A stretch of DNA of 64,000 nt from Actinoplanes palleronii. GTDB lineage: Bacteria; Actinomycetota; Actinomycetes; Mycobacteriales; Micromonosporaceae. The notes beneath the pieces are model-generated. The model did no database searches and had not been told where the DNA came from. It saw nothing but the letters and a program-made list of their open reading frames with translations. Shown here one piece after another: positions 49,796 to 64,000 of the stretch. Both the position numbers and the translations under genes were made by a program. Every line of letters starts with the position of its first letter. The stretch's first letter is position 1. The stretch is from NCBI RefSeq assembly GCF_016862315.1, contig NZ_BOMS01000031.1, positions 62,001 to 126,000 on the forward strand, written 5' to 3'.

Positions 49796-50205
49796 CGTTG
49801 GGTGCCGTCGGCCGGCGGCGTTGTGGGGAGGGCTTCGGTGGGTGTGTCGCCGTTGATGAAGCGGGCGGTGTCGGCGACGAGTGCGCGGATCTCGTCGGCG
49901 TTGCGCAACCGGATGTTGGTGGCAGTGATCTCGTAACTGGATCCGTCTGCTCGGGTGATTTTGACCGTGCAGTTCCCGGTCCGCCGTCGGATCCACGAGA
50001 TTAGGGCCGAGGCTGTCGCCGAGACTGTTGCCGTGACCGCGCCTTCTGGGCCGATCACGACGGTGAGTATCTCTGTCAGAAGGCCGAGTTCTCCTGTCTT
50101 GGGCTCGCCGGGCTTCGGCGTGGCCCGCCCTGCGCCCTCGTCGTTGTTGAGCCAGGAGCACAGCGAGTCGGCGCCTTCATTGATCTCGAAAGTTATCCTG
50201 ATCAC
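49792..50205 (-). CDS. Effector-associated constant component EACC1
   Basis: A 137-residue protein matching the EACC1 component that accompanies caspase and other effectors in actinobacterial STAND-type conflict systems. The visible pattern is VIRITFEINEGADSLCSWLNN (N-terminal strand-helix), a Pro/Gly linker, ELGLLTEILTVVIGPEGAVTATVSATASALISWIRR (amphipathic/hydrophobic helix) and a C-terminal strand pair CTVKITRADGSSYEITATNI. I choose GTG 50205; an earlier GTG at 50220 is possible. The stop overlaps the caspase start by four bases, so both are co-translated. It probably acts as an adaptor between trigger and effector; its mechanism is not settled. Confidence 0.78.
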   Translation of the reverse strand: MIRITFEINEGADSLCSWLNNDEGAGRATPKPGEPKTGELGLLTEILTVVIGPEGAVTATVSATASALISWIRRRTGNCTVKITRADGSSYEITATNIRLRNADEIRALVADTARFINGDTPTEALPTTPPADGTQR

Positions 50206-50698
50206 AGGACATTGATACACCCGCTGGTTCTTTCGCGTTCAGTCCGGTCGTCGGATAGCGACTTCGGATTCACCCGGCCGTGTCAGGCGATGCGTCCCGC
50301 TGGGGGCGGCCGAAAGCGCCATCGCACACCTCAAATCGTGGAAAGTCCTCAAGACGGGCTTCCGGTGGTTCCTCGAGAAGTTCCCTGCCGAGTTACGGAA
50401 GGTAGCGAGACTGGAGGTTTCCAAGTGCATGGTCCGCCGGTCTCATCCTTAATGCTTTCGGGAAGTCCTCGTGGGACTGGCCCCGTAGCAGTAACGCGGT
50501 GGATTGCCAGGGAGGTCCTGTCGATGGCCAGCGAGGATAAGCCGGAGCGAGTGAGGATCATTACCGCGCAAGCTTGGAGAGTACCGGCAGCCGAACGACG
50601 GGGAACTTCCCACGGCCCCGGGCACGGTGGCGGCCGCCCAGCCCGGCCAGGCCCCGGTGAGGGACGGCGCCGGACGGCCGCAGCGGGCAGGGCCCGGG
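50206..50698. other. Intergenic region upstream of the EACC1 operon
   Basis: No gene is supported. The sequence has lower, irregular G/C content and holds the promoter of the leftward EACC1-caspase operon. From about 50620 it is GC-rich and joins the decayed RCC1-repeat gene. Confidence 0.45.
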
Positions 50699-51474
50699 TC
50701 AGGAAGCCACGATCGACGTGGTGCCGTTACCGGCGTCCAGCACCGACACCGTGCGCCGGTACAGGATCCCGGTCATCTGGATCGGGTTCGGGCTGGTCCG
50801 GCCGGTCACGTCACCGGTCGCGGCGACCAGCTGCCGGCGCTGTTGTTGCCCCAGCAGAACCCGGCGTTGTCGGTGGTCAGCGCGCATGAGTAATACATGC
50901 GCCGCGGTCAGCGTCGCGACGGTCTTCGCGCCCAGCAGCGTCGCCGCGGTGGACACGTCAGCCGGGGTGTTACGCCCGGCCGTGGTCCCGTCACCGAGCT
51001 GGCCGTACTGGTTGCTGCCCCAGCAGAACATCCGCTGGGACTCCAGCGCGCACGCATACGCGCTGCCGGCGGTGACCGTCGTGGTCGTCTTACCGGCCAG
51101 GCCGGTGGTCGTGACGACCGCGGCCGGGGTCATGACCCGGGCGATGCTGGCGCCGTTTGCCGACCTGTCCGGAAGCGCCCAGGCCCCGGCAGTACGCGGC
51201 ACTCGACGACGCGGCGAAAGTGAAAAGCTCCTCGGCGGTGATCGACGTGGCGGTGCGGGGCAGGCCGGTGACCGTGAACGGGACCGACGCGGTCAGCGAG
51301 CTGTTGCCGAGTTGGCCCTGGCCCGTCGAACCCCAGGCGTACGCGGCACCGGAAGCGATAGCGCATGTATGCGAGGTGCCGATGGCGAGCGCGGTGACGG
51401 TCTTGCCGATCAGGACACCGCTGGCGTACACCTGTGCGGGAAGTGGGCAGTGTTGAACCGAACCCATCATCGTG
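50699..51474 (-). pseudogene. Broken RCC1-repeat (beta-propeller) gene
   Basis: RCC1 repeat signatures lie in succession on the minus strand but in different frames: AIGTSHTCAIASGAAYAWGS and GQGQLGNSS (from 51470), then VTAGSAYACALESQRMFCWG and NQYGQLGDGTT (from 51202), then, one frame over near 50825-50890, SCALTTDNAGFCWGNNSAGQL. At least two frameshifts separate them, so no intact protein can be made. The N-terminal part and any signal peptide are missing. Intact relatives are secreted or cytoplasmic seven-bladed propellers of unknown role in actinomycetes. The right end coincides with one copy of the 40-bp repeat listed below. Confidence 0.8.
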
Positions 51475-51782
51475 GGTCGTGAGTCGACAGTGCCGCACCA
51501 GGACGTTCGTTGCCGATGTCGTGGCAGTTCTGTCGCTGGACGCCCTCGGTTCAGTCGGCACCGGACCGTTACGGTTTGTGTAACCGTCTCTGACGGTGTT
51601 GGCTACCGTTGTCTATGTGAGAGCGCATGGGGCAGCGGGTGTCCAGTGCAGTGACGGCCTGACGGTTTGTCCCACGGGCCGCAGACCGCCACGTGAGGGT
51701 CGTGGACTCGGTGCGGTGTCGCCACTGGTGAACGGTAGTGATTGCGGAGAGTGGGCAGTCTCGAACCGAACACATCATCGTG
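51435..51782. repeat. Imperfect 40-bp direct repeat, 308 bp apart
   Basis: Copies at 51435-51474 and 51743-51782 match at about 35 of 40 bases, sharing GTGGGCAGT and GAACCGAAC with CATCATCGTG. They bracket a 270-bp stretch with no gene. This may be the footprint of a duplicated segment or an excised element. Confidence 0.65.
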
Positions 51783-51943
51783 TCATCACGTCGTCTGTGA
51801 CCAGCCGATACGTCGCTGTTGCAAATCGGAACACCGGGCAACGTATGACGGATGGGGTGACGTCCTCCCCGGGTTGGTTGCCCGACCGGTTCGGTGAACC
51901 CGGGGTGGTGTCCCTCGTGACGGTTGGAAGCTAACGTGATGAC
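51475..51943. other. Non-coding interval, 470 bp
   Basis: I see no coding sequence. The interval contains the second copy of the 40-bp repeat and an extended GC-poor stretch before the coiled-coil gene, and probably the promoter of that gene. Confidence 0.45.
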
Positions 51944-52570
51944 ATGCCGGACGCTTTGACCCGCAGGCCTCTTCCCGACTTTCTCCAGACCGAGCTGGAT
52001 CAGTTGACTGCTGAGCTGGAACGGCTGGGCGAGGAGAAGGTGACGCTGGAGGAGCGAATCGGCTCGCTTCGCGACAAGGTGATGTTCGTTCAACAACTGC
52101 GTGAGAGGTACCTCGCTGAGCGGTCGACTGCCGACGTCGATGTGCCGGTCACCGCTGAGTGCGTGAGCATTGATGCCAAAACGGCTGCGGAGTCGAATAG
52201 CGACCTTCTCGGTTCGAGGAGCGTAGGAGTGCAGCCGTCGGCGAAGCGTACGGTTCGGCTGCCGAGTACTCGACCCCCATACGAAGATCGTGTCGGCAAA
52301 AGCGGCGCTCGTGATATTTCCAGTCCTGACAGCGATCGCCCGTGGGCTGATCGTGTGGCTGCCCTCATGATCAACAGTGGCGATCGTGTATGGTCGATCG
52401 AGCAGTTGAACATCAAGTTGATCGATGTGCGTTGGAGCGCAGAGGTGCAACGTAGAGCCAAGACGGCGCTGCGCAAGGCTGTGGAGCGGATGCTGAGTCG
52501 GGGGCAAGTAGTGCGTACCGGAACCGCTGAATACCGGCCAACGGCCCTGATCGCCAATGCGAGCCGATGA
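51944..52570 (+). CDS. Coiled-coil plus wHTH-like protein, unknown function
   Basis: A 208-residue protein. Residues about 8-60 form a clear coiled coil (LQTELDQLTAELERLGEEKVTLEERIGSLRDKVMFVQQLRERY). The middle is a low-complexity linker, and the C-terminal 80 residues (WADRVAALMINSGDRVWSIEQLNIKLIDVRWSAEVQRRAKTALRKAVERMLSRGQVVRTG) have the spacing of a winged-helix domain with a final beta wing. Codon use is of the accessory type (A/T-ending codons). I do not recognise a family. In actinomycetes small coiled-coil/HTH proteins often adjoin conflict or transposon-derived genes; a regulatory role is inference. Confidence 0.65.
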   Translation: MPDALTRRPLPDFLQTELDQLTAELERLGEEKVTLEERIGSLRDKVMFVQQLRERYLAERSTADVDVPVTAECVSIDAKTAAESNSDLLGSRSVGVQPSAKRTVRLPSTRPPYEDRVGKSGARDISSPDSDRPWADRVAALMINSGDRVWSIEQLNIKLIDVRWSAEVQRRAKTALRKAVERMLSRGQVVRTGTAEYRPTALIANASR

Positions 52571-52788
52571 TCTGATTTAGACAGGCTTCCGGTCCGCAAG
52601 AGCTATCCTTTCGTCCGTTACCGCTGCCTGTGCGGCCACGAGACACTCTCTTGGACTGGCTTTCTACATGGCACACCGTTTATGACGGTCATGCGGAACG
52701 ACCGAGTCGTTCGGAAATGAACGACCATGACGGTATTCACAGGGTCTCGGGTAGGGCTCCCAGGCAACTTTTCTGCTGGTTGCGCACC
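52571..52788. other. Intergenic with mutually exclusive stems
   Basis: No gene is supported. GAACGAC occurs at 52696-52702 and 52719-52725 around GTCGTTC at 52706-52712, so the middle arm can pair with either side. The rest has irregular composition. Confidence 0.45.
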
Positions 52789-53163
52789 TTATTCAGGAAC
52801 ATCTTCGGCGGGAATATATCCTGCCCAAAAGGGCAGGCCAGCCGCTGCTATCCGGTCGCGAACTAAAGCTTGTTCTTGATGTCGGTTTGCTTTGGCCTCA
52901 GCGATTATCCGAGCGTGTTGTGCGCGGAGCTCCGCTCGCCGCGTCACTGCTTCCGGAGCGTCACCGCTGATCTCGGCCAGCAGTTGACGAGTCCGTTCGG
53001 CGCTCGCGAGCAGCTGCGGGGACGGAACCGCGCGCCAAGAACGTCGCCCATGGCGCGGCGATAGCTGCGGCATAGCGGCTATGCCGGCAGGTGGGTGGTG
53101 ACCTGTACGACCGTGTTCGCACAGGTCAAGATGTCTGTTCACCGGCCCGGCGACGATAATCAT
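52789..53163 (-). CDS. Hypothetical helical protein
   Basis: A possible 124-residue protein from ATG 53163 (MIIVAGPVNRHLDL), or 94 residues from ATG 53073 (MPQLSPRHGRR). The C-terminal 80 residues look like a genuine charged amphipathic helix protein: SPQLLASAERTRQLLAEISG, EAVTRRAELRAQHARIIAEAKANRHQEQALVRDRIAAAGLPFWAGYIPAED. Third-position bias there supports coding, while the N-terminal part is less certain. No family is recognised. It could also be the end of a larger decayed gene, as its neighbours to the right are. Confidence 0.4.
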   Translation of the reverse strand: MIIVAGPVNRHLDLCEHGRTGHHPPAGIAAMPQLSPRHGRRSWRAVPSPQLLASAERTRQLLAEISGDAPEAVTRRAELRAQHARIIAEAKANRHQEQALVRDRIAAAGLPFWAGYIPAEDVPE

Positions 53164-53268
53164 CGATGTTGCTCCAAGAGTGCCGCAAGATTTATTTGGC
53201 GACGTCGGGGTTGCGTGGGTCGGTGAAGAACAGACATTCATGTTCCTTCATGAAACGGGGTGACTGCG

Positions 53269-53361
53269 ATGCGGGAGATCGCGAGCACCCTGCGCAGCGC
53301 TGCCGACACCTACGAAGCCGAAGACCGGGCCGGCGCCCACCGGATCAAGAACATCTACTGA
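53269..53361 (+). pseudogene. C-terminal remnant of an ESX secretion-associated (DUF2580-like) protein
   Basis: A 30-codon frame, MREIASTLRSAADTYEAEDR and AGAHRIKNIY, that matches the end of small ESX/type VII secretion target proteins (Sxx-S-A-D-xY-xxxD pattern). The N-terminal two thirds that such proteins need is absent upstream, where a different frame runs, so this is a truncated remnant. It ends ten bases before the WXG-type gene, the gene order usual for T7SS substrate pairs. Confidence 0.6.
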
Positions 53362-53373
53362 CGGGGGAACGTG

Positions 53374-54167
53374 ATGTTCAGCGTCGCGCAGCACGAAGCG
53401 GTGATCGCGGAGATCAACGAGGGAATGAACACGCTCAACGCAAAGCTGGATCAAGCCATCCCCGCCGCCGACCGTGTGGCCAGCCAGTGGTGGGTGGCCG
53501 ACGTGATCGGCGAAGCGCTTATGTACATAGCCCGCGAGACCGTGGAACTTGGCAAGGAGATCGTCGCTTTTATCGCCGACCTGCTCAAAGGGGCCGTCGC
53601 GCCGATCATCATGTTCCAGGATTCCTGGAAGTGGGCCGACATCAAAAGCGGGTTCAGCGGCGTCGCGACCGAACTCAGCGACACCAACCTGATCATCGAC
53701 GACTCAAAATAGTCCGGCGACGCCAAGAGCGCCTACGTCACCGTGGCGGCGGCGCAGTCCGCTGCCGCCAGCCGGTCAGCTCGATCGCCGGAACCACCAT
53801 GGGCAACCTGATCCAATGCGCACTTGCCGGCTCGGTCTTCTACCTCGCGGTCGCCACGATCGCCGCCAAACTGATCGTCGCCGCCTCGGCCGCAGTCGCG
53901 GCGATCAGTAGCGCAGTCTTTTCCGAGATTGGCGGCGTGATCTTCGTGGAGGAAGGCACGGTGAACATCACGGCACTGTCCGTGGCCGCCGGTGTCCTCG
54001 CGACGTTCCTGTCCTCGCAGGCCGTCGCCATGGTCATGATGCACAGCGACGCTACCGATCCGACCAGCTTCCCGGGCGGCGGCCATTGGCCAGCAGCTAA
54101 CACCGCCCGCTACAACGACGCGACTATCAACGACACCGACGCGGACTGGAACCTCAAGGGCGAATAG
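53374..54167 (+). pseudogene. WXG100-superfamily secretion substrate, broken by amber and frameshift
   Basis: Reading from ATG 53374 gives MFSVAQHEAVIAEINEGMNT, a helical domain, then DDSK followed by TAG (53710-53712) and, in frame, SGDAKSAYVTV. The ancestral sequence was clearly W-SGDAKSAY, the Trp of the W-x-G motif (TGG) having become an amber codon. About 63 bases later a one-base loss near 53775 shifts the frame; the shifted frame restores SSIAGTTMGNLIQ, two hydrophobic segments (FYLAVATIAAKLIVAASAAV and LSVAAGVLATFLSSQAVAM) and a C-terminus ending WNLKGE at 54167. The repaired protein would be about 264 residues. Type VII-exported proteins and toxins have such an organisation. Confidence 0.75.
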
Positions 54168-54622
54168 TCGACGTCGTAACGCCGGCATGGAAAATCCCAG
54201 GCGGGAGGCCTTACGTTCGGACGTGTGTTCAAAGTCTTGACGACGTGGATTACGGGCAGGCTTATGGAACCGTGCTCAGGCGCTATGTGATCCAGGCGCG
54301 TTCTTGACACGGCAATCACGAGCAGGCAAAACGGTTAAATCAAACAGTCAGGCAGGAGCGTATCCCTTTGGCGGATTGAGATTAGAAGTGCGGCGGGTAG
54401 GCAAGGGTGTCTAACAGCATCCGAGCCCTCGGGGCTGTTCCGAGGCGCTCCGTCGAAACGGGGAACTCAGGTCCTGCGGCGAGCGGTGTGCCTGCGACTA
54501 GAGCTAAGACGATGGGTCTTGTGCTTGGCGGATAACCTGACTCGCAGTCGCTAAGATTCGCGGGCTGCAAACGGATCATACTGTTACCGCTGTGATCATG
54601 GGCATCTATTGACTACTCTAAG
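54168..54622. other. Intergenic 455 bp, promoter of the NB-ARC gene
   Basis: No gene is supported; G/C content is low and irregular. The last bases before the NB-ARC start (TACTCTAAG then ATGATG) lack a ribosome-binding site, so a leaderless transcript is possible. Confidence 0.4.
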
Positions 54623-56887
54623 ATGATGGACGCTGGAGCACTGTGGACGATTGTCGGCTCTGTGGCCGGCGTCGGAGCCCTGATCATCGGGTCCGCTCAG
54701 CTACAGCAGGGCAAGAAGAGTCTGCAGCGAAAGGCCAGCACGGCGGATGCGGCGCCTCACGAGGGCGGTTCCGGTTATGTTCTCGGTGACACTGTAGCGG
54801 TCCCGCTCGGTCGGTTGCCCCGCGAGGTTGTCGGACGTGAGACGACTCTGCGACTCCTTGCCCGTGCATTCAGGCAGGGGGATCGAGTCATCGTTCTCGC
54901 TGGCGTTGGAGGCATAGGCAAATCGACCGTCGCAGCGGAGTTTTGCCGGACCATGACAGGCCGTAGCTGGCCGCGGCGACCCAGTCCCTCAGTGTGGTGG
55001 ATCGACGGATCGGACCGGGCGCGGCTCGTCGGCGGTCTGGTATCGGTGATTCGAGCGGTCGGTGGTACCGAAGCCGACTGTGTCGCAGTGCGTGACGGAT
55101 ATCCCGATGCGCCCGACCGATTATGGCGCCTCCTGCGCCGCTCGTCGCAGCGCTGGGTGATTACGATCGATAATGTCGACGACCCGTCCGTGCTCAACTG
55201 GGTCGCCGCCGATGCACCGGGACAATCCGCCAACGTCTCGACCGGGACAGGGTGGGTGCGATCGAGCCCACGCGGTTTGCTCATCATCACGTCGCGGAAT
55301 GCAGACGCTACCTCGTGGAGCAGTAAGTCAGACATTGTCAACGTTGACACGCTGAGCCGTTCGGACTCTGCTAGCATCCTGCTCCGCCTGGCGCCGCAGG
55401 CTGGCGTACGAGAGGACGCCGAAGTTCTGGCCGACACCTTGGGAGGACTTCCGCTCGTTCTGCGCGTCGCAGGCGCCTATTTGGCATATCCCTTGGCTCG
55501 GTGGGCGACGTTCGACGAATACCGGTTGGCTTACCGGCATCAAACCGTAGAGGTGTTGGCCGCCACCAACACAACTTCGATCGGTGAACGGGATGATCTC
55601 ATGACGACTTGGGAGCTGTCACTCGACGATCTGTCCAAACGCGGTGTTCCGGAGGCCAGAGCACTTCTACGCCTCATATCGTGCTACGCGGCGAACGCGA
55701 CCATTCCACTCGACCTTCTCGATTCTGAGGCGCTACATCCGCTGCTAGGTGCCGCAGCTGGCACTGACGTGCGGCTCAGAGTAGAGCAGGCACTTCGTGG
55801 GTTACTCCGCTACGGTTTAATCAGCAGCGGACCGACGCCACCCCCAAGCATCGTCGGGCATCCAGCGATTACCGACAGCAATCGAAGCCATCTCCGTCGC
55901 GGCTCCGAGCCTAGCCCCCACCTGGTGTGCGCGGTGGCGTCGTCGCTCGTCGTCGAGAGAATCCGCGCGCTGTCCTTCAGCGCCCCCCGAGACTGGCCCG
56001 CGTTCGCCATGCTCGTGCCTCACTTGCAGGCCCTACTTAAGGTAACGCCAGAGTTCCTAGGCGAGGACGACCTCGGCGCTCTTTGCGACATGGCGAGCAA
56101 AGCCGTACTCGCCTACGACTGGAGCGGCGGTCTGGCGGCCGCCGAACAACTCACCCGAATGGCCCTCCACGCTGGCCGATCGCTGCCAGCCACATCGCCG
56201 CCCAAGCTTCGCCTGCTTCAGCAGGAAGCGCTGCAGAGGGGAAGGCGAGGCCATTGGGGCGAGGCGCTACCGGTTTTCAAGCAACTGGCCGGAGTCAGCG
56301 CCCGGGCGAACGGGGACGATCACCCGGTGACGCTGGCCATCCGTCACGACCTAGCGCGTGCCTACGCTCACGAAGGCCAGTGGACGGCGGCGGAGAACCA
56401 GGCGCGAGAGGTGTTCGAAGCCCGGGCGAGGTCTCTTGGCGGCGTCCACGTCGAGACGTTGGCAAGCGAGCACCACCTCGCGCGCGCGCTGTCCGCGCAG
56501 CACAAATGGGACGCCTGCAATCCGCTGTTTGAGGAGATCATCCGCAAGGAGCGCAGCCTCGTCGGTGATCGCGACATTCTGACCCTGGCAACCCGGGACG
56601 CTCAGGCGCGGAGTTTCGCCGAACAGGGTCGGTGGTTCGAGGCCAGTCAGGCTTACCAGGCGATTCTCGACATCCGTAGCGGTTTTATGGGCCGAGAGCA
56701 CCCGACGACGCTTGCAAATCACCACAGCCTTGGTGTCGCGCTGGCCCATCAAGGCCGAATGAATGAGGCACGCGAGGCTCTCGAGCGCGTGTACGAGGCG
56801 CGCCTGCGTGTGTTGGGGCGCGATCATCCGGAGACCCACCAGACAGCCGATGCCCTCCGCGAGATCGACCGCGCGCGAGGCGAATGA
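54623..56887 (+). CDS. NB-ARC ATPase with C-terminal TPR repeats (STAND regulator)
   Basis: A 754-residue STAND-class ATPase. A single membrane helix lies at about 8-26 (WTIVGSVAGVGALIIGSAQL). The NB-ARC region includes Walker A VLAGVGGIGKST (91-102), Walker B RWVITIDNVDD (about 177-187), the GLPL-like motif DTLGGLPLVLRVAGAYLAY and a winged-helix segment. Residues about 520-750 are tetratricopeptide repeats (ALPVFKQLAGVSARANGDDHPVTLAIRHDLARAY and four more). Such proteins act as signal-dependent switches controlling transcription or effectors. It has three TTA Leu codons (167, 394, 399). It begins the rightward run and ends 30 bp before the methyltransferase gene. Confidence 0.9.
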   Translation: MMDAGALWTIVGSVAGVGALIIGSAQLQQGKKSLQRKASTADAAPHEGGSGYVLGDTVAVPLGRLPREVVGRETTLRLLARAFRQGDRVIVLAGVGGIGKSTVAAEFCRTMTGRSWPRRPSPSVWWIDGSDRARLVGGLVSVIRAVGGTEADCVAVRDGYPDAPDRLWRLLRRSSQRWVITIDNVDDPSVLNWVAADAPGQSANVSTGTGWVRSSPRGLLIITSRNADATSWSSKSDIVNVDTLSRSDSASILLRLAPQAGVREDAEVLADTLGGLPLVLRVAGAYLAYPLARWATFDEYRLAYRHQTVEVLAATNTTSIGERDDLMTTWELSLDDLSKRGVPEARALLRLISCYAANATIPLDLLDSEALHPLLGAAAGTDVRLRVEQALRGLLRYGLISSGPTPPPSIVGHPAITDSNRSHLRRGSEPSPHLVCAVASSLVVERIRALSFSAPRDWPAFAMLVPHLQALLKVTPEFLGEDDLGALCDMASKAVLAYDWSGGLAAAEQLTRMALHAGRSLPATSPPKLRLLQQEALQRGRRGHWGEALPVFKQLAGVSARANGDDHPVTLAIRHDLARAYAHEGQWTAAENQAREVFEARARSLGGVHVETLASEHHLARALSAQHKWDACNPLFEEIIRKERSLVGDRDILTLATRDAQARSFAEQGRWFEASQAYQAILDIRSGFMGREHPTTLANHHSLGVALAHQGRMNEAREALERVYEARLRVLGRDHPETHQTADALREIDRARGE

Positions 56888-56917
56888 CAATGCCGCCCGT
56901 CCGGAAGAGGTGGACCC

Positions 56918-58210
56918 TTGCCGACAGTCGAACTGCATGGAATCTCGCGGAGCGCACATCCAGAAGTCGTACGGAGCATCGACGAGAGACTACGCACCTG
57001 CGCTTTCGTGGCGGACATCGTGGTCGTCGAGGCGCACACTAAGGTGCTCGATCTTGACGGGCGGCCGCGGCCGTTCGTGCGGGTGCTGACCCGAAGCGAC
57101 GAAAAAGCCTCCGTTTTGGCCGACAAGCTCGCTGATCTTGCGGATGTGGAGACGGTGCTCATCGGCTTCCATCCGATCCGGCAAGCGACCATGGAAGGGC
57201 AGCTCGCCGAGGCGCTACAACCAGTCGCGCAGGCGTTCACCGCCTTCGCGTTGCATGCTTTTCTGGATACTGGTCTGGCGCGCAGCATTGAGTCAGGGAT
57301 GGCTGACCTGGCCGCTCTGGCCGATCGGCATGCGATGGATCCGGACCGGCTATCCGCGCTGCTCGGTTACCTGGTCAATGAGCGCTATCTCACCCGGGTG
57401 GCCGACCGGTGGGAGCTGACTGGCAAGATGCGGGCAGTCGCCCGCATCGAGCCGTGGTACACCCTGCTGATCGGCGGTTACGGGCAGCTTCTGCCGACCA
57501 TCCGGGAGTTGCTTCCCGCTGGCGCCCCGTTCGGAAGCCGGGACGCCGTCGCTGTCGGTCGCGGCAGTTGCGGCATCAGTCAATACGACGCGATCCCGAT
57601 GATCGTGTCGCTTTTGAGCGGTGAAAACGCCCTACTCGGACGGATCATCGACATCGGATGCGGCGACGGCTCGTTCCTGGCATCCCTGATCAAGCAGAAC
57701 CAAGCCGAGGCCGGGATCGGACTCGACAGCGATCCCGGTAGCATCCGAGCCGCCAATGAGTCCATCGATTCGTGGGGCCTGGCGTCGAGACTGTCGTTCC
57801 AAACCACGACTGTGCAGGACTTCATCGCCGCTCAATCCGGTGACGGTCGCCGCGACTGCTTCCTGGCCTCGTTCGTGCTCCAGGAAATCCTGGAGCAGCA
57901 GGGCGAGGAGAGCTTACGGTCGGTGTTGCGGGCGATCAGTCGACGAGGTTCACGCCTTCTCGTCGTCGAGGTTGAGCCCGGCCGGGACGGTCTGGACATG
58001 ACCACCGGCCTGGCCAACCGGTATTACAACGCATATTTCCTGCTGCATGCGCTGACTGAGCAGCGGCTGGCTAGCCGCGATTACTGGGAGGCGATTTTCG
58101 CGGACTGCGGGTTTTCCGTCGCCCGATCGGCCACGGTGAACCCAGAGGTCGATTCGACTGGGCTGGAGTTCGGGCTACTGCTGTCGCCGCGGAGCGGGTG
58201 GGTGGCTTGA
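56918..58210 (+). CDS. Tautomerase-like N-domain fused to a 2-keto-acid (2-ketoarginine-type) C-methyltransferase
   Basis: A 430-residue protein. TTG at 56918 is well placed after GGAAGAGG and gives MPTVELHGISRSAHPEVV, with proline at position 2; residues 1-90 have the size and beta-alpha-beta pattern of a 4-OT/MIF-like tautomerase domain, in which Pro-1 is the catalytic base. Next is a helical dimerisation/HTH region (about 95-165) and a Rossmann methyltransferase domain with SAM motif IIDIGCGDGSFLASL (about 243-257) and GLDSDPGSIRAANES. GRGSCGISQYDAIPM and RYYNAYFLLHALTEQ resemble the 2-ketoarginine C3-methyltransferases of the MrsA type. One TTA codon (333). TTGA overlaps the next start. 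Confidence 0.7.
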   Translation: MPTVELHGISRSAHPEVVRSIDERLRTCAFVADIVVVEAHTKVLDLDGRPRPFVRVLTRSDEKASVLADKLADLADVETVLIGFHPIRQATMEGQLAEALQPVAQAFTAFALHAFLDTGLARSIESGMADLAALADRHAMDPDRLSALLGYLVNERYLTRVADRWELTGKMRAVARIEPWYTLLIGGYGQLLPTIRELLPAGAPFGSRDAVAVGRGSCGISQYDAIPMIVSLLSGENALLGRIIDIGCGDGSFLASLIKQNQAEAGIGLDSDPGSIRAANESIDSWGLASRLSFQTTTVQDFIAAQSGDGRRDCFLASFVLQEILEQQGEESLRSVLRAISRRGSRLLVVEVEPGRDGLDMTTGLANRYYNAYFLLHALTEQRLASRDYWEAIFADCGFSVARSATVNPEVDSTGLEFGLLLSPRSGWVA

Positions 58211-59331
58211 CGCTGAGTGCTTTGCAGAGGCAGCTCGCCCATGTGCGGGCACACCCGGAGATCCGCTGGATTGACGGCATCGAGAACGTGCCTGTGTGGC
58301 CCGGTCGCCACCCGCTGACCGGAAGGCTTAGTGCTGCTCGCTACGCGGCCAGGTACGAGGATCCGCGCGGCGAACCACTCCTGATCGATGCGGTGCTTCA
58401 GCGGGAACGCGATCGCGGCAAATCGGTCGAGGGGTCGGGTGTGTGCATAACGCACGGTGGCCTCGCTGGACTCGGCCTGGTCTTCCGGCATCTCCGCTCG
58501 TCCGGGCTGCGGACACTGATCTGCCAAATGCCGATGCTGTCTAGCATCCATCTTCTTGCCGTTTCCGCCGGCCTCTCGGTCCGCGGCGTGGGCTCGGACG
58601 AGTTCCTTGACTACATGGCAAATGATGCTTCCCGCGATGCAGCGCTGTATCTCTGCTCGCCACACAACCCGACCGGCGCTGTATGGGACGAGGCAGAGAT
58701 CAAGACCCTTATGAGCGGGCGCGCCGACAACTTCCGCCTAGTCGTAGACGGCGTCTACGATTCGTTCGTTTTCGGCGAGCGGCCTTGTTTCGGTTACCTC
58801 GAAGACCCGCGCATCTTCTACATCGACTCGATGTCGAAGAGCTACGGTTCGCCGGGCCTGCGTGTCGGCTGGGTCGTCGGAGCCCCCGATGAGGTGGACC
58901 GGCTGGTGGTCCGGAACGAGTTCGAGAACATCGCCGTGGGCGGGCTCAACCAGGAGCTCGCACGTCGCCTCTTGGAGCATGGCAATGTCGCCCTGATTGA
59001 CCGGGTGGTTGACGGACGCCGGCAGGTGATCCGGTGGTGGTCCCGACTGAACGCCGCTGGGGCAGCTGAGGGTCAGCTATCCGTCGACGGTGGCACCCAG
59101 GCGTGCGTTCCGCTGCCGGTGGGCCTCGATGTCGAGCTCCTCTCCCACCGGCTCCTCACCGATTTCCACCTGGTGCTCGTTAGCTCTGCCAACTACCACA
59201 ACGTCCCCGGCGCAGCTCCATTCCTGCGGGTGCCGTTGGGGTGTGACCCCCAGCGGCTCTGTCAGATTCTTGAGGCGCTGGAGCCCGCTATCGTCTCCCA
59301 GTACGGAGACAGCAGATTGACCCTGATGTAG
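58198..59331 (+). CDS. PLP-dependent class I/II aminotransferase
   Basis: A 377-residue fold-type-I PLP enzyme (GTG 58198, or TTG 58207 overlapping the methyltransferase stop). Landmarks: GVCITHGGLAGLGLVFRHL (PLP phosphate loop), YLCSPHNPTGAVWDEAEI (the NPTG motif), LVVDGVYDSF (Asp), and the Schiff-base lysine K214 in IDSMSKSYGSPGLRVGW. The C-terminal half has VPLGCD with the usual Arg. It is a likely transaminase for arginine/2-ketoarginine or the methylated product. It is co-translated with the methyltransferase and converges, with a 70-bp overlap, on the opposite-strand aminotransferase-like gene. Confidence 0.85.
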   Translation: MGGLTLSALQRQLAHVRAHPEIRWIDGIENVPVWPGRHPLTGRLSAARYAARYEDPRGEPLLIDAVLQRERDRGKSVEGSGVCITHGGLAGLGLVFRHLRSSGLRTLICQMPMLSSIHLLAVSAGLSVRGVGSDEFLDYMANDASRDAALYLCSPHNPTGAVWDEAEIKTLMSGRADNFRLVVDGVYDSFVFGERPCFGYLEDPRIFYIDSMSKSYGSPGLRVGWVVGAPDEVDRLVVRNEFENIAVGGLNQELARRLLEHGNVALIDRVVDGRRQVIRWWSRLNAAGAAEGQLSVDGGTQACVPLPVGLDVELLSHRLLTDFHLVLVSSANYHNVPGAAPFLRVPLGCDPQRLCQILEALEPAIVSQYGDSRLTLM

Positions 59332-60335
59332 CCGGGCCAGCCGTGCAGTCCGAAGTGTCGCTCGTCCATCGTCAAGCACTCGCGGCGAATGTTATCGCCT
59401 ACCACGGCGAACGTGAAATAGCTTGCGTTCGGTGTGGCCATCTCCGGGCCAATCAGGCCGTCGGACAGCAGTCGGCGATGCTGCCTGGCGATGTGGCCGG
59501 TTAGGAGCGCATTGCCTTCCGCGCTGTTCAACGCCTTCATTATGGCCACCGCCTGCAGATAGCCGATGGTGCTCGTGGAACCGGTAATGTTGGAGCAGGG
59601 ATAGCGGATGTCCTCTTTGAAGCGCTCCGGATAGATCAGGTAAGCGAAGCGGACTCCGTGGACGGCCAAGCTTTTGGTTGGGCAGACCAGTCTGACCGTC
59701 AAGTCCGGCAGAAGGCGCGATGTCTGTTCGGGCGCCCGAGGCTGATCCCACTGGGTGTATTGGAAGGTGCCGTCGACGAAGACTAGTGATCCAGTGTCCG
59801 CCTGCCAATCCCGAATGCGGTCAAAATGCTTCTCGTGCACTTTCGTGCCGGCCATCCAGATGGGATCGCAGAAGAGCAGAGTGGACCGTTCGGTGGGCAG
59901 TCTTAGGTCCGCGTCGCCGTGCAGAGGCATGGTTGAGATCGGGGTAAGTCTGATGCCGAGCCGTTGCGCGAAGTAGTAACACGAGTAGTAAATCGGTGGA
60001 ACGTAGAAGATCTCGGTGATGCCCTGTGCTTGCGCGAACAGGAAGATGGTTAACAGTAGAGGGCTGGAGCCATTGGTCATGTAGATCGAGTTGGGGGCGA
60101 TCTCGATGCCGTCGGCGTTCGCGTGGAAGTCCTGGATCAGGGTCGCCAAGTCGGCGGCCTCGCTGAGGATGTCGTAGCACTCCATCTGGTCGGCGGAGTA
60201 GGTGTGCGGCACATATTCGAAGGGATTGACTGTCTCCCAACCGGAGAGGAACTTTCCCTCGCCGATCCGGCGCCACTGCATGTCGATGTCCTGGTGCAGC
60301 CGAAGGATCTCTTGACCGTCGATTTCCATTGCCAC
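59262..60335 (-). CDS. PLP aminotransferase-fold protein, atypical
   Basis: A 357-residue protein with a fold-type-I pattern: PNSIYMTNGSSPLLLTIFLF, the putative Schiff-base lysine K221 in RLVCPTKSLAVHGVRFAYL, and VFVDGTFQYTQWD for the PLP-pyridine Asp region. The usual NPTG loop is replaced by CDPIWMAGTKVHEKHF. NPFEYVPHTYSADQ near the N-terminus and FVVGDN-like FTFAVVGDN near the end are unusual. It may be an aminotransferase with a shifted specificity or another PLP enzyme. One TTA codon (95). Its start is four bases after the dehydrogenase stop, so the two are co-transcribed leftward. Confidence 0.75.
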   Translation of the reverse strand: MAMEIDGQEILRLHQDIDMQWRRIGEGKFLSGWETVNPFEYVPHTYSADQMECYDILSEAADLATLIQDFHANADGIEIAPNSIYMTNGSSPLLLTIFLFAQAQGITEIFYVPPIYYSCYYFAQRLGIRLTPISTMPLHGDADLRLPTERSTLLFCDPIWMAGTKVHEKHFDRIRDWQADTGSLVFVDGTFQYTQWDQPRAPEQTSRLLPDLTVRLVCPTKSLAVHGVRFAYLIYPERFKEDIRYPCSNITGSTSTIGYLQAVAIMKALNSAEGNALLTGHIARQHRRLLSDGLIGPEMATPNASYFTFAVVGDNIRRECLTMDERHFGLHGWPGYIRVNLLSPYWETIAGSSASRI

Positions 60336-60339
60336 CCTC

Positions 60340-61269
60340 TCACAAGACGGGGTTCACCCGTTCGCCGGCAATCCAGCCGCTTAACGCAGCCGCCCAGGTG
60401 TCCGCCCACCTCAGCTGACATTCGTACGTCCACCAGCCGTTTAAGTGGGTCGTGACGAGGTTCGGCACACCGGCGTAGCGAGTCGGGTCGCCGATGACAT
60501 CGATGCCCGCGCCGGCCAGATGACCGTCGACCAGCGCCTGGTGGAGCGCCGGGAAATCCACGAGTTCGTCGGCGGAGACGTTGATCAGCACTGCCCCGTT
60601 CTTCATCCGGGCGATCGCCTCGGCATTGATCACCTTTTCGGTATCCGCGTCGAGCGGCGCTGTGAGAAAGAGGACATCGGCGACGGCGAACAGCTCCGCT
60701 CGCTCCATCCACTGCCCGATGCCACCTCGGCGCCCCGATCGATTGGTGTATGCCACCTGCATGCCGAGTGCATCGCAGGCTCGGGCCACTCGTTTCCCGA
60801 TGTCACCGAGCCCGAAGATCCCGGCAGTGCGACCGTTGACGTCGTGGGCAATGAAGGCGGTGGTCTGAGTCGCGCCCTGCTGGATGGCCTGGTCAATCTC
60901 ACTAATGCGCCGGCCAACTGAGAGCATCAGCCCGATCGCGAGCTCCGCCACCGAAGGCCCGGCATAGCCCGCCGTATTGCTGACGCCGATGCCGCGCTTA
61001 CGACAGTAGTCGAGATCAACGTTGTCGTAGGCGGTGCCCATACAGATCACCAGTCGGAGGCCTGGAAAGCGCCGCAAAGTTTCCCCACCGAGTTCGCCGT
61101 TGGGGCCGATCAAGACCTCGATAGTGGTGGGGTCCCTCCGGTCCGGGTCGTCATCGTCCGTCCACGTGCATTGAGCGATCTTCTCCAGATTCGCGACGAT
61201 CGGCTGTGGCACACCACTCCGGTTCGCTAGAACAAGAACTTGGGGTCGCGAGGTCAACGTGGTCTCCAA
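60340..61269 (-). CDS. D-2-hydroxyacid-dehydrogenase-like protein lacking the catalytic Arg
   Basis: A 309-residue member of the D-isomer-specific 2-hydroxyacid dehydrogenase superfamily. The NAD fold GIFGLGDIGKRVARACDALGM (about 150-170) and the catalytic His motif LVTTHLNGWW (H275) are present. The canonical arginine block (NTARG-like) is replaced by INVSADELVD (230-238), so the substrate carboxylate-binding Arg is gone, and the EP glutamate motif is DVIGDPT. It may reduce a non-canonical substrate or have become a structural partner. It is divergent from the SDR and co-transcribed with the aminotransferase-like gene. Confidence 0.85.
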   Translation of the reverse strand: METTLTSRPQVLVLANRSGVPQPIVANLEKIAQCTWTDDDDPDRRDPTTIEVLIGPNGELGGETLRRFPGLRLVICMGTAYDNVDLDYCRKRGIGVSNTAGYAGPSVAELAIGLMLSVGRRISEIDQAIQQGATQTTAFIAHDVNGRTAGIFGLGDIGKRVARACDALGMQVAYTNRSGRRGGIGQWMERAELFAVADVLFLTAPLDADTEKVINAEAIARMKNGAVLINVSADELVDFPALHQALVDGHLAGAGIDVIGDPTRYAGVPNLVTTHLNGWWTYECQLRWADTWAAALSGWIAGERVNPVL

Positions 61270-61352
61270 GGCGCAGCGATACGGTAGTGGTCATCATGTC
61301 CAACGAAGAGAAGCTGGATCGCCGTGTGGGGTGACAGATTGTCGACAGGGCG

Positions 61353-62096
61353 GTGCCCATGACCGTTGCGATCGTCACCGGCGCGTCGACCGGTATCGGA
61401 CGTTCGGTTGCCGTCGCTCTGGGGCGCCGAAAGTGTCACGTAGTTGTGGTGTCTCGGTCGGACGATGACGGCAACCGGGAGACCTTGGCAGAGGTCGAGG
61501 CAGCGGGTGGAAGCGGCGTTCAAATCACGGCGGACGTAGGTACCTCGTCCGGGGTAGCAAGGGTCTTTGCCGCGGCCGATGGCGAACCGCGGTTCCTGAT
61601 CAACAACGCCGGCCGCAACGTGGCAACACCTTTTCGGCACTGGGCGGAGGGCGACTGGGACGAGATGTATCGAACCAACCTCCGGTCGGTGGCCCTGATG
61701 AGCCAACGCTTCGTGACCCGGCTTGAGTCCAGTGGCGGGACAGCGACCGGTGCTATCGTCAATGTCTCCTCGATCCGCGGGCTCGACGGCGCCTCGACCG
61801 GCGACACGGCGGCATACTCGGCCGCTAAGGCAGGGGTGATTAGCCTGACCGGTGCCCTCGCCAAAGAACTCGCGCCTTCGGTCACGGTCAACTGCGTGAC
61901 TCCGGGGTACGTGCGCACCGCGTATCTCGCGCAGACGTCCAGGGAGCAGCGACGCGCTTGGCTCGGCAGCGTGCCGATCGCTCGTTTCATTGAACCGCAC
62001 GAAGTGGCCGACGCGATTCTTTTCTTGCTCGACCATCGTGCGTTGACCGGCGCCAATCTCGTGATTGACGGTGGTTGGCGGATGGCTGCTGCCTAG
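61353..62096 (+). CDS. Short-chain dehydrogenase/reductase
   Basis: A 247-residue classical SDR. The NAD(P) motif TGASTGIGRSVA is at about 9-20, followed by NNAGRNV, the catalytic Ser in NVSSIRG, the Tyr-Lys in AAYSAAKAGVISLTGALAKEL and the C-terminal CVTPGYVRT ... LTGANLVIDGG. Length and motifs are complete, so it should be an active oxidoreductase, either NADH- or NADPH-dependent. It converges with the ureohydrolase, the two stop codons overlapping by four bases. It may act on the keto or hydroxy group of the cluster product. Confidence 0.92.
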   Translation: MPMTVAIVTGASTGIGRSVAVALGRRKCHVVVVSRSDDDGNRETLAEVEAAGGSGVQITADVGTSSGVARVFAAADGEPRFLINNAGRNVATPFRHWAEGDWDEMYRTNLRSVALMSQRFVTRLESSGGTATGAIVNVSSIRGLDGASTGDTAAYSAAKAGVISLTGALAKELAPSVTVNCVTPGYVRTAYLAQTSREQRRAWLGSVPIARFIEPHEVADAILFLLDHRALTGANLVIDGGWRMAAA

Positions 62097-63118
62097 CCTT
62101 CGTCCACATGTCGATCGAGCAACGGTCGGGTTGGATCCCACTGTTGCGCATCTCCACCCTCCTCCCCGCTTCGTGCGATGCTGCTCAAAGCCTCAAGGAC
62201 AACGCGATTGGCAAGCAGCGCAGTGATGTCGGCATGGTCGTAGGGTGGAGAGACCTCGACAACGTCAACACCCGCCAGAGGAACTCGCGAGCAGATCCTC
62301 CGCACGGCGTCCAGCAGCGCTCGCGCGCTCAAGCCGCCGGGCTCCGGCGTGCCAGTGCCAGGGGCGGCAGCAGGATCGCATACATCAATATCGACCGAGA
62401 GGAAGACCGCTTCTGAGCACTGAAGCGCGGTCTCGATCGCTTCGTCAATACAGACCATCAGCCCTCTATGCTCTATCTCGGCCATCTCGTAGGACCGCAT
62501 GCGATGCTGGGCCATCCACCGGAGCACCTCCGGTGGTGGCCAGTAGCCACGCAATCCGAGCTGAAGAAACTGATCGCCACGAATCGCGCCCGATTCGATC
62601 AAGCGCCGCATCGGCGCTCCGTGCCCCCAGAGCGAGCCGAACTCGATATGGCCGGTATCGGCATGTGCGTCGAAGTGAATCAAGCTGACGCTGCCATGAC
62701 CCCTCACGTTGGCCACGCCCCTCACGTCGGCATAGGTGATTGAATGATCGCCACCTAGGATGATTGGGAGGGCGCCATTAGATGCGACGCTCTCTACCGC
62801 CATCTCAAGCTGACCGAGCGCTCTTCGCGCATCGCCGGAGAACATTTCAACGTCTCCGGCGTCGCGGATGATCAAGTCACAGAAAGCGTCCCTGCCCATC
62901 GCCAGAGAGGGGCGAGACGCATTATGGGGTAGGTAGTCGCATGTTCTAATAGCTTGGGGCCCGAAGCGCGTGCCTGGCCGGTGAGACGTCCCGCCGTCGA
63001 AGGGCGCACCAAGGATCACGACGTCGCAGGCTCGGAGCGAATCCGGATCCTGCAGGCTGCAACGTTCGGCACCCAGGAAAGTAACATCAGGACCGTACTG
63101 AGATCCGTATCGATCCAA
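62093..63118 (-). CDS. Ureohydrolase (agmatinase/guanidinobutyrase family)
   Basis: A 341-residue manganese ureohydrolase that removes urea from a guanidino compound. All metal-binding motifs are present: ILGGDHSITYADV, LIHFDAHADTG and SVDIDVCDPAAAPGTGTPEPGG; the substrate-region pieces HGAPMRRLI and RPGTRFGPQAIR fit the SpeB (agmatinase/guanidinobutyrase) group more than arginase. The C-terminal 40 residues (ALSSIARSGEEGGDA and onward) are an extra tail. In the cluster it could hydrolyse a methylated 2-ketoarginine, arginine or agmatine derivative to an amine; substrate is inferred only from context. Start ATG 63118. Confidence 0.9.
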   Translation of the reverse strand: MDRYGSQYGPDVTFLGAERCSLQDPDSLRACDVVILGAPFDGGTSHRPGTRFGPQAIRTCDYLPHNASRPSLAMGRDAFCDLIIRDAGDVEMFSGDARRALGQLEMAVESVASNGALPIILGGDHSITYADVRGVANVRGHGSVSLIHFDAHADTGHIEFGSLWGHGAPMRRLIESGAIRGDQFLQLGLRGYWPPPEVLRWMAQHRMRSYEMAEIEHRGLMVCIDEAIETALQCSEAVFLSVDIDVCDPAAAPGTGTPEPGGLSARALLDAVRRICSRVPLAGVDVVEVSPPYDHADITALLANRVVLEALSSIARSGEEGGDAQQWDPTRPLLDRHVDEG

Positions 63119-63329
63119 CGCGTCTGCCCCCCAGTGAGGAATCGCATGGAGATCTGGTCAGAGCGTTGCAGACATTGACGAAGAGCGCCAGTGTTACTTA
63201 CTCCGGGGAGGTCGGTCGCGGCCTGTTCGGGTTGATCTAGCGTTGGGTCCGTTTGGAGATTGTTCTGCGGGTTCCGGTAGATAGTGATCACTCGATGGCA
63301 TGAAAATGAACATCGGTCGCGCCGCGCCG
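63119..63329. other. Intergenic between ureohydrolase and IS debris
   Basis: No gene is supported. It contains an A/T-rich stretch and presumably the ureohydrolase promoter. Confidence 0.4.
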
Positions 63330-63700
63330 GTCGGCTGCACGGTTGGGCTGGTCATGAGCGCGCGTAGCGGTACCCCAGCGACGAGCAGTGGGCCTTGCTC
63401 GGCCCGTTCCTGGACGCCTGGGGAGCCACACGGAGCTCGGTAGCTGGCCGCCAAGGCGAACAGGATCTTCGGGAGATTATCAACGCGATCCTGTATGCCA
63501 CAGAAACCGGTTACTTATGACTATTTCGTCCTGTGGCGCAATGACGGCACTGATCCGGCGATCCACGATCTGCTGCACGGCCAGGCCCGCGAGAGCCGGC
63601 CGGACCGAGGACCCCGTCCGCGGTCGCCCTGGATACCAGTCGATCCGGGCGGCGAACCACGTTCCGGCCGCCACGACGGGCAAAGACGCGGGTAGGGCCT
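63330..63700 (+). pseudogene. IS5-family (IS112-like) transposase remnant
   Basis: Pieces of an IS5-type transposase occur in several frames. RYPSDEQWALLGPFLDAWG and REIINAILYATETGY come first, then, after an internal deletion, YDYFVLWRNDGTDPAIHDLL in another frame, then TEDPVRGRPGYQSIRAANHV and PAATTGKDAGR in a third. The usual W-R-x-L-P-H stretch between the first two is missing. The rest of the gene stops at about 63695, where the second element begins. No functional protein. Confidence 0.75.
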
Positions 63701-64000
63701 GTATCGAAGTCGCTTACAGCCATTCGTTGATCGCGGCGATGGTCACGGTGGCTTCGTAGCGGACGGCCAGCTTGTCGTATCGAGTGGCGACTCCACGGTT
63801 GCGCTTGAGCCGGTTGATCCCGCACTCGACAGCATGCCGCTGCTTGTACAGCTCGGGGTCGAAGGCCGGCGGCCGGCCGCCCTTCCAGCCGAGCTTGCGC
63901 CGGTTGGCGTCCTGGTCAACCCTTGGACGGGATGGTCGCCTTGATGCCACGCCGACGCAGGTAGCGGCGGGTTTTTCGGCTGGTGTAGGCCTTGTCGGCC
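63701..64000 (-). mobile_element. Second IS5/IS4-family element, 3' part, extends past the window
   Basis: On the minus strand the transposase C-terminus reads [21 protein letters not shown] from the window edge, then, after a one-base frameshift near 63920, [20 protein letters not shown] and [32 protein letters not shown], ending TAA at 63714-63716. The DDE-family Glu context is [10 protein letters not shown]. The element end (inverted repeat expected around 63693-63712, AGGGCCTGTATCGAAGTCGC) lies within the first remnant. The rest of the element is outside the window. Confidence 0.75.

Follow-up and report, generated by a model that had tools for sequence, protein, structure and literature searches.

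The window analysed here is a stretch of 64,000 nucleotides from Actinoplanes palleronii. At positions 56918-58210 of its forward strand, the ORF list and its translation give a gene for a protein of 430 aa that opens TTG-CCG (Met-Pro) and joins two parts. Residues 1-91 (56918..57190, forward strand) form a Met-Pro domain, delimited by a tblastn homologue, a six-member alignment and the predicted fold of one homologue, L066, whereas residues 92-430 (57191..58210, forward strand) resemble 2-ketoarginine C3-methyltransferases. Directly downstream lies a gene for an MrsB-like beta-methylarginine aminotransferase (58198..59331, forward strand; TIGR04544, 287.6 bits, E 1.4e-85, under the curated cut-off of 350), whose first possible start falls inside the end of the fusion gene, giving a 13-base overlap. 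A second aminotransferase class I/II-fold protein is encoded on the opposite strand (59262..60335, reverse; PF00155, E 9.7e-10). These two distinct aminotransferase-fold genes are arranged tail to tail next to the fusion gene, and the MrsB model is matched by the first only. They are followed by genes for a D-2-hydroxyacid dehydrogenase (60340..61269, reverse; PF02826, E 1.3e-39), a short-chain dehydrogenase (61353..62096, forward; PF13561, E 2.4e-41) and an arginase-family ureohydrolase (62093..63118, reverse; PF00491, E 1.6e-81). Upstream, a gene for an NB-ARC/TPR protein, a possible regulator (54623..56887, forward; Pfam NB-ARC and TPR_12, with NF040586 FxSxx_TPR under its cut-off), ends 30 bases ahead of the TTG; it may share a transcript with the fusion gene.

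An in-frame stop at 56885-56887 leaves TTG 56918 as the earliest possible start of the frame. An earlier note on this DNA had chosen this codon for having the best ribosome-binding site, and the choice holds. For each in-frame ATG, GTG or TTG up to residue 92, start strength was scored by how well bases -20 to -4 pair with the anti-Shine-Dalgarno sequence. The Shine-Dalgarno-like stretch agaggtgg (56906..56913, forward strand) gives TTG 56918 a pairing energy of -8.4 kcal/mol, the strongest of the ten candidates, against +0.7 to -5.9 kcal/mol for the nine later ones; pairing of this quality occurs at 4 of 182 sampled positions within the ORF (2.2%). The codon-position GC of 56918-57190 (0.71/0.42/0.73) is coding-like and near that of the methyltransferase part (0.67/0.48/0.77).

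The second part of the protein is readily placed. Residues 93-423 match positions 2-335 of the 336 positions of TIGR04543 (329.3 bits, E 2.4e-98), under the curated cut-off of 425 bits, a score not reached by any match in searches of 300 and 343 genomes. The 2-ketoarginine methyltransferase of PDB entry 8r4z matches from residue 92 on (E 1e-52), and the glycine-rich SAM motif IIDIGCGDGSFL is present. Full-length homology to TIGR04543, the SAM motif and an MrsB-like neighbour are thus found together, as expected of MrsA (TIGR04543; 8r4z), from which the window protein differs by falling under the 425-bit equivalog cut-off and by its extra N-terminal domain. Residues ~93-423 are therefore 2-ketoarginine-methyltransferase-like by homology, and methylation of keto-arginine is their likely activity. 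The SgvM/MppJ keto-acid C-methyltransferases are also related in sequence (MppJ, E 3e-4; 8ftv/8ftr, E 2e-6, which we take for SgvM as their His residues fall on 244 and 296).

The Met-Pro domain has few relatives. Its sole tblastn match among 72,556 plasmid records is a 100-aa gene of Streptomyces sp. NBC_00467 annotated as ‘hypothetical protein’ (39.8% identity, E 9e-9), which overlaps by 8 bases the start of an annotated 2-ketoarginine methyltransferase gene, itself followed by a beta-methylarginine aminotransferase gene. The presence of blsE and blsF in the same cluster indicates a blasticidin-type cluster, by inference an arginomycin-like one; the arginomycin cluster has reportedly been published. 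Profile searches of 394 genomes of the class added one further locus of this kind, in a genome taken for Streptomyces (G1326, genus g50; locus L065), where the small gene again overlaps the start of the methyltransferase gene. The DNA of this locus is 87% identical to that of NBC_00467 across 2.4 kb and 82% identical across further stretches, so that it does not count as an independent case. A third match in these genomes (G1193) was weak and partial. Since the homologue is a separate gene overlapping the methyltransferase gene start in both NBC_00467 and G1326, the window gene is a real fusion of the two partners. The joining of domain and methyltransferase proposed in the earlier note is thereby borne out, as a fusion in the window and as adjacent, overlapping genes in the two Streptomyces-type loci. 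No title or abstract found in searches of the open-access literature describes such a fusion.

Three other homologues occur in other settings. One stand-alone gene was found among 392 genomes of genus g50 (G1026), and a scan of genome contigs yielded 166 pattern matches, two of which were confirmed, in Micromonospora sp. HNM0581 and Blastococcus sp. TF02A-35. In both Blastococcus and G1026, a carbamoyltransferase gene (Carbam_trans_N/C) comes immediately after the small Met-Pro gene, with an APH-family phosphotransferase gene nearby and a pyruvate-kinase-family gene following (by Pfam in G1026, by eye in Blastococcus). This conserved group of four, small Met-Pro protein, carbamoyltransferase, phosphotransferase and pyruvate-kinase-family protein, spans 5121-12385 of L062 in G1026 and 5660-11060 of L067 in Blastococcus, and the former additionally includes an aspartate/ornithine carbamoyltransferase-family gene. 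The small gene of Micromonospora (L066) is situated ~4 kb from a contig end with neither a methyltransferase nor a carbamoyltransferase partner in view, and the best match to the 2-ketoarginine methyltransferase in that genome scores 29 bits, which is not a close relative. It is preceded (L066 936-4269) by an MFS-like ORF (by eye), a FemAB/GNAT-like gene (Pfam) and an oxygenase-like ORF (by eye, with no Pfam match).

All six aligned members start with Met-Pro as read. In L060, L061 and L066 the frame has no start ahead of the Met-Pro ATG. L063 could start earlier, at an ATG 15 bases or a TTG 105 bases ahead, but its AGGAGG-like stretch lies between the two ATGs; L067 has a possible earlier TTG (12 bases). 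The five stand-alone homologues can all begin with Met-Pro at the same place as the window protein, in agreement with the Met-Pro start of the earlier note, and the start question is thus settled as far as sequence allows. That note had regarded a downstream start in related proteins as evidence against its reading. Such starts do occur in the domainless relatives, which start close to the position equivalent to residue 92, whereas the domain-bearing ones begin at the same Met-Pro. Proline at residue 2 is not rare by itself (4 of 58 annotated genes on one Streptomyces plasmid, not counting the small gene and two cut ones), so that its weight rests on its conservation down to ~30% identity. The invariant positions of the six members are M1, P2, E5, G8, D33, V43, P52, R55, V56, R59, D76, E78, I82 and F84.

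Residues 1-91 could in principle be an artefact, either because the real start is ATG 57191 (residue 92) and they are not made, or because an assembly indel joined two genes. The open frames of the domainless methyltransferases, ~340-400 codons and too short to hold the domain, would fit such a view. However, the pairing before ATG 57191 is weak (-1.7 kcal/mol), and the alignment with the stand-alone homologues keeps to a single frame up to about residue 88 and continues in that frame into the methyltransferase. The ATGGATGA overlap present in Streptomyces has left no trace in the window, which also argues against a spurious junction of two genes. We consider an artefact very improbable. As judged from these alignments, residues 1-91 are a genuine separate domain that belongs to a small family as yet without a name.

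The whole 430-aa protein, used as query for related loci, gave 31 pattern matches, none of them confirmed. The 94-aa domain query found only itself in its own genome (next best E 0.59), and among 396 genomes of the phylum it gave weak matches in 24 others (best E 5.3e-4). Rescoring of 29 loci (the 24 weak ones, G1193 and four own-genome matches) with the six-row profile produced nothing convincing: the best, L064, scored 17.7 bits over positions 25-81 within a longer frame, and the remainder under 10 bits. No relatives of the domain were detected in phages, in viral contigs or in plasmids other than that of NBC_00467. In the whole genomes of four organisms that carry the methyltransferase without an adjacent domain (G044, G024, G102 and G090), the same profile found nothing better than E 0.23.

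Sequence models in Pfam and the PDB do not recognise the domain. For the six members, Pfam hmmscan reported no family at E <= 10, NCBIfam a single row, a chance match to a DNA ligase, and the PDB sequence search chance-level rows only. An AlphaFold2 model of the Micromonospora homologue L066, built from a three-row alignment (homologue, window and Blastococcus; pLDDT 77.4, pTM 0.64), has the order beta-alpha-beta-beta-alpha-beta. Foldseek compared with the PDB gave 860 matches at E <= 10, four of them at E <= 0.001 (best E 4.3e-4, probability 1.00). Among the best 50 of these 860, 42 are titled MIF, 4-OT, CHMI or MSAD, and one is 1gif (glycosylation-inhibiting factor), which we take to be MIF; the other seven are the DUF1904-type entries 4m1a and 1u9d, four designed-cage chains and 3c6v. 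The VIA comparison of the same model peaks at Z 7.6 (1u9d, 88 residues, 3.7 A) and still reaches Z 5.8 at rank 50. Judged by title or by the nature of the entry, its best 50 rows are all members of the tautomerase superfamily or cages constructed from such members. In 25 of these 50 the alignment opens with residue 2 of the model on residue 1 of the chain. As Z values under 8 could alone reflect a common arrangement of elements, what persuades is how uniform the list is, together with the register of the proline.

The model of the window's own domain does not agree. A single-sequence AlphaFold2 prediction of residues 1-94 (pLDDT 62.8) resembles generic mixed folds: its best VIA row has Z 7.0, with tautomerase titles in none of the 50 rows listed, and in Foldseek (best E 0.048) other folds lead, the first MIF entry, 9b0m, ranking 17th (E 0.21) and 1u9d 20th (E ~0.2). 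This model suggests a ferredoxin-like, KH-like or cation-transporter C-terminal-domain fold, which we rank second since it comes from the lower-confidence model.

The profile comparison with DUF1904 offers a further, weaker line of evidence. A DUF1904 profile built from seven actual sequences, two of them PDB rows and the rest five of the six plasmid hits, aligned by hhalign with the domain profile over 87 columns end to end, with a score of 22.2 and a probability of 12.8%. When the Met-Pro columns were kept and the others shuffled, none of 100 shuffles reached this score (11.6 +/- 2.1, maximum 19.8), and shuffling in blocks of eight gave a mean of 13.8 and a maximum of 19.1. A four-row subset (window, L060, L063 and L066) scored 25.5, again unmatched by 100 shuffles in each scheme (maxima 20.5 and 22.1). 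The score drops to 11.7 upon removal of Met-Pro from both profiles, and the two-row carbamoyltransferase-linked subset (L061 and L067) reached 15.6 over 16 columns. Circular profile shifts (null mean 18.3, maximum 21.9) were discarded as an unfair control, because they leave the true alignment largely intact. DUF1904 against 4-OT, the positive control, scored 27.2 (0 of 60 shuffles). 4-OT itself does not stand out against the domain, with shuffles that kept Met-Pro scoring as well in 2 of 100 cases for six rows and in 6 of 100 for four. The relation to DUF1904 is accordingly suggestive at the level of profiles. None of the six members matches 4-OT (PF01361) in hmmscan, and the hhalign probability with 4-OT is 2.5% (96.5% for a control of two 4-OT sets); and none matches DUF1904 (PF08921, cut-off 24.1 bits) at E <= 10, so that the domain is filed under neither. 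A genome search with DUF1904 was also empty, though it adds little with only 0-2 candidates scored per genome, and the silence of a DUF1904 search of 119 genomes of the phylum, where the controls were silent too, says nothing about absence.

On balance, the domain probably has the tautomerase-superfamily fold. The claim of a tautomerase domain in the earlier note thus survives in part: the structural check that it proposed leads mainly to the tautomerase superfamily for homologue L066, and the weaker DUF1904 comparison points the same way, but the model of window residues 1-94 disagrees and there is no match to 4-OT or any Pfam tautomerase. With the superfamily (4-OT, MIF, CHMI, cis-CaaD and MSAD) the domain shares the encoded Met-Pro, the double beta-alpha-beta predicted for the homologue, and a Pro2 in register with Pro1. 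It differs by lacking detectable similarity to the 4-OT profile, by its length of ~90 residues, shorter than most of the matched MIF-type chains, and by its N-terminal fusion to a methyltransferase. With DUF1904 (PF08921; 4m1a and 1u9d) it shares Met-Pro, a central PFVxV-like strand, an Arg ahead of the second helix and the full-length profile alignment, 1u9d being the best VIA row and 4m1a ranking fourth, but the Y-Y-x-x-G-x-H-like tail of most DUF1904 rows is missing.

The placement of the conserved residues may be informative. MSAD is reported to require its Pro-1 (PMC10606566), and Asp-37 and the pair Arg-73/Arg-75 are thought to hold the substrate. In the L066 model, D33 stands just ahead of the second strand, as does the Asp of MSAD, while R55 and R59, in the second half like the arginines of MSAD, lie within and at the end of the strand preceding the second helix. 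The layout of P2, D33 and R55/R59 would therefore resemble the MSAD set. This bears on the possibility that the domain is a non-catalytic assembly or docking module, a tautomerase-like trimer or a ferredoxin-like dimer serving to arrange the methyltransferase and the proteins around it. Such a role would suit the generic alpha/beta folds of the window model and its matches, as well as a tiny family tied to particular gene neighbourhoods, and a tautomerase-fold protein with neither an N-terminal proline nor a known function is on record (PMC9813972). Nevertheless, retention of the proline at residue 2 and of two arginines in all six members would be odd for docking, and the same family is also present in carbamoyltransferase clusters. 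We find a docking module rather unlikely.

It is tempting to suggest, as the earlier note did, that the domain supplies the enol to the methyltransferase. In the scheme that we infer, which extends to Met removal, oligomer, catalysis, substrate and role, the domain would act as partner of the 2-ketoarginine methyltransferase to which it is fused in the window. Removal of Met would free the N-terminal proline, which would serve as base and acid on the C3-H of the 2-oxo acid while the conserved arginines R55 and R59 hold its carboxylate. 2-Ketoarginine would be shifted between keto and enol form beside the methyltransferase, the latter would then methylate C3, and MrsB would aminate the product to beta-methylarginine. 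Enol supply appears to be the likeliest single role of the domain, although the tautomerase fold and this role, taken jointly, stand at somewhat less than an even chance.

Comparison among methyltransferases tempers the idea. In SgvM, zinc is bound by H244 and H296 and is presumed by the authors to trigger enolisation of the keto acid (PMC10502145); a separate tautomerase is thus not obviously needed. The window protein differs from SgvM, as described there, in having Q and N at these places. We compared 13 methyltransferase loci, namely the window, four from each of two genome searches, G1326 and three of eight plasmid records (H12-H16 were dropped as being like H11 in identity and coverage). 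On the METHYLTRANSFERASE side, at the H244 place, nine of the 13 (window included) have Gln and four have His, as does 8r4z, while all 13 have Asn at the H296 place. The domain is found at three of these 13 loci, which is not a frequency, as L065 (G1326) and NBC_00467 were reached first through the domain. All three have Gln, but so do six enzymes without the domain; the His-to-Gln change does not therefore require it, which makes it less likely that the domain stands in for a metal site that was lost. The absence of the domain from ten of the 13 loci also speaks against enol supply, as does the fact that two homologues adjoin a carbamoyltransferase and one adjoins neither partner. In the methyltransferase tree the window sits on a long branch, and the fused and adjacent forms meet at an open fork.

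The neighbouring genes provide another clue. A gene similar to the MrsB-like gene of the window (phmmer E <= 1e-8) is present at all three loci with the domain and at none of the ten without it, although two of the three are near-copies, leaving two independent cases; other aminotransferase genes do occur at domainless loci. This ties the domain to a module of methyltransferase and MrsB and keeps alive the main catalytic rival of enol supply, C3-epimerisation together with the neighbouring aminotransferase. A domain of the same fold would abstract and return the C3 proton of 3-methyl-2-ketoarginine, either free or as a PLP adduct on MrsB, and so set the C3 configuration of beta-methylarginine. 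Proton transfer at C3, beside a keto group, would suit the chemistry of Pro1. There is also a precedent in L-allo-isoleucine formation in the desotamide and marfomycin pathways, where an aminotransferase works with an isomerase at the beta-carbon of a 3-methyl-2-oxo acid (PMC7459860). The analogy is imperfect, as the partner here is fused to the methyltransferase and not to the aminotransferase, and we hold epimerisation to be unlikely. The presence of two aminotransferase-fold enzymes beside the window gene could alternatively call for a RidA-like helper, which would hydrolyse or tautomerise a reactive enamine or imine set free by the cluster's PLP enzymes to give clean 2-ketoarginine. An Alisedimentitalea plasmid cluster with a related methyltransferase does contain a RidA-family gene and a gene for an FAD oxidoreductase, but the domain has no match to any Pfam family, RidA included, and such a role seems improbable.

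A broader reading is that the window protein is a bifunctional enzyme that joins a keto-acid C-methyltransferase to a member of a new tautomerase family, one with a free N-terminal proline and with stand-alone relatives. In the making of beta-methylarginine the domain would either hand over 2-ketoarginine as its enol or determine the configuration at C3, and this family would serve a second pathway with carbamoyltransferase and pyruvate-kinase-like enzymes. We put this forward as a tentative proposal, doubtful in its full extent. Should it be true, the tautomerase superfamily would gain a family whose substrate can be guessed from gene neighbours, and nature would offer one pair both as a fusion and as two genes for direct comparison. 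Whether enol formation limits keto-acid C-methyltransferases would become testable, and the domain might serve as a part for making beta-branched amino acids. A ‘hypothetical protein’ of a blasticidin-type, by inference arginomycin-like, antibiotic cluster would also gain an anchor.

Two features of the surroundings deserve mention. An arginase-family ureohydrolase gene lies near six of the 13 2-ketoarginine methyltransferases (62093-63118 in the window; also at L116, L112, L118, L114 and L113), which hints that beta-methylarginine may be turned into beta-methylornithine or a related acid. The arginine gene island (window 50000-64000) has a third-position GC of ~0.76-0.78 in its larger ORFs, as against ~0.85-0.97 in most other ORFs of the window, and a transposase-like ORF (by eye; L072 416-715) lies beyond its right edge. 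Both observations suggest that the island was possibly acquired horizontally.
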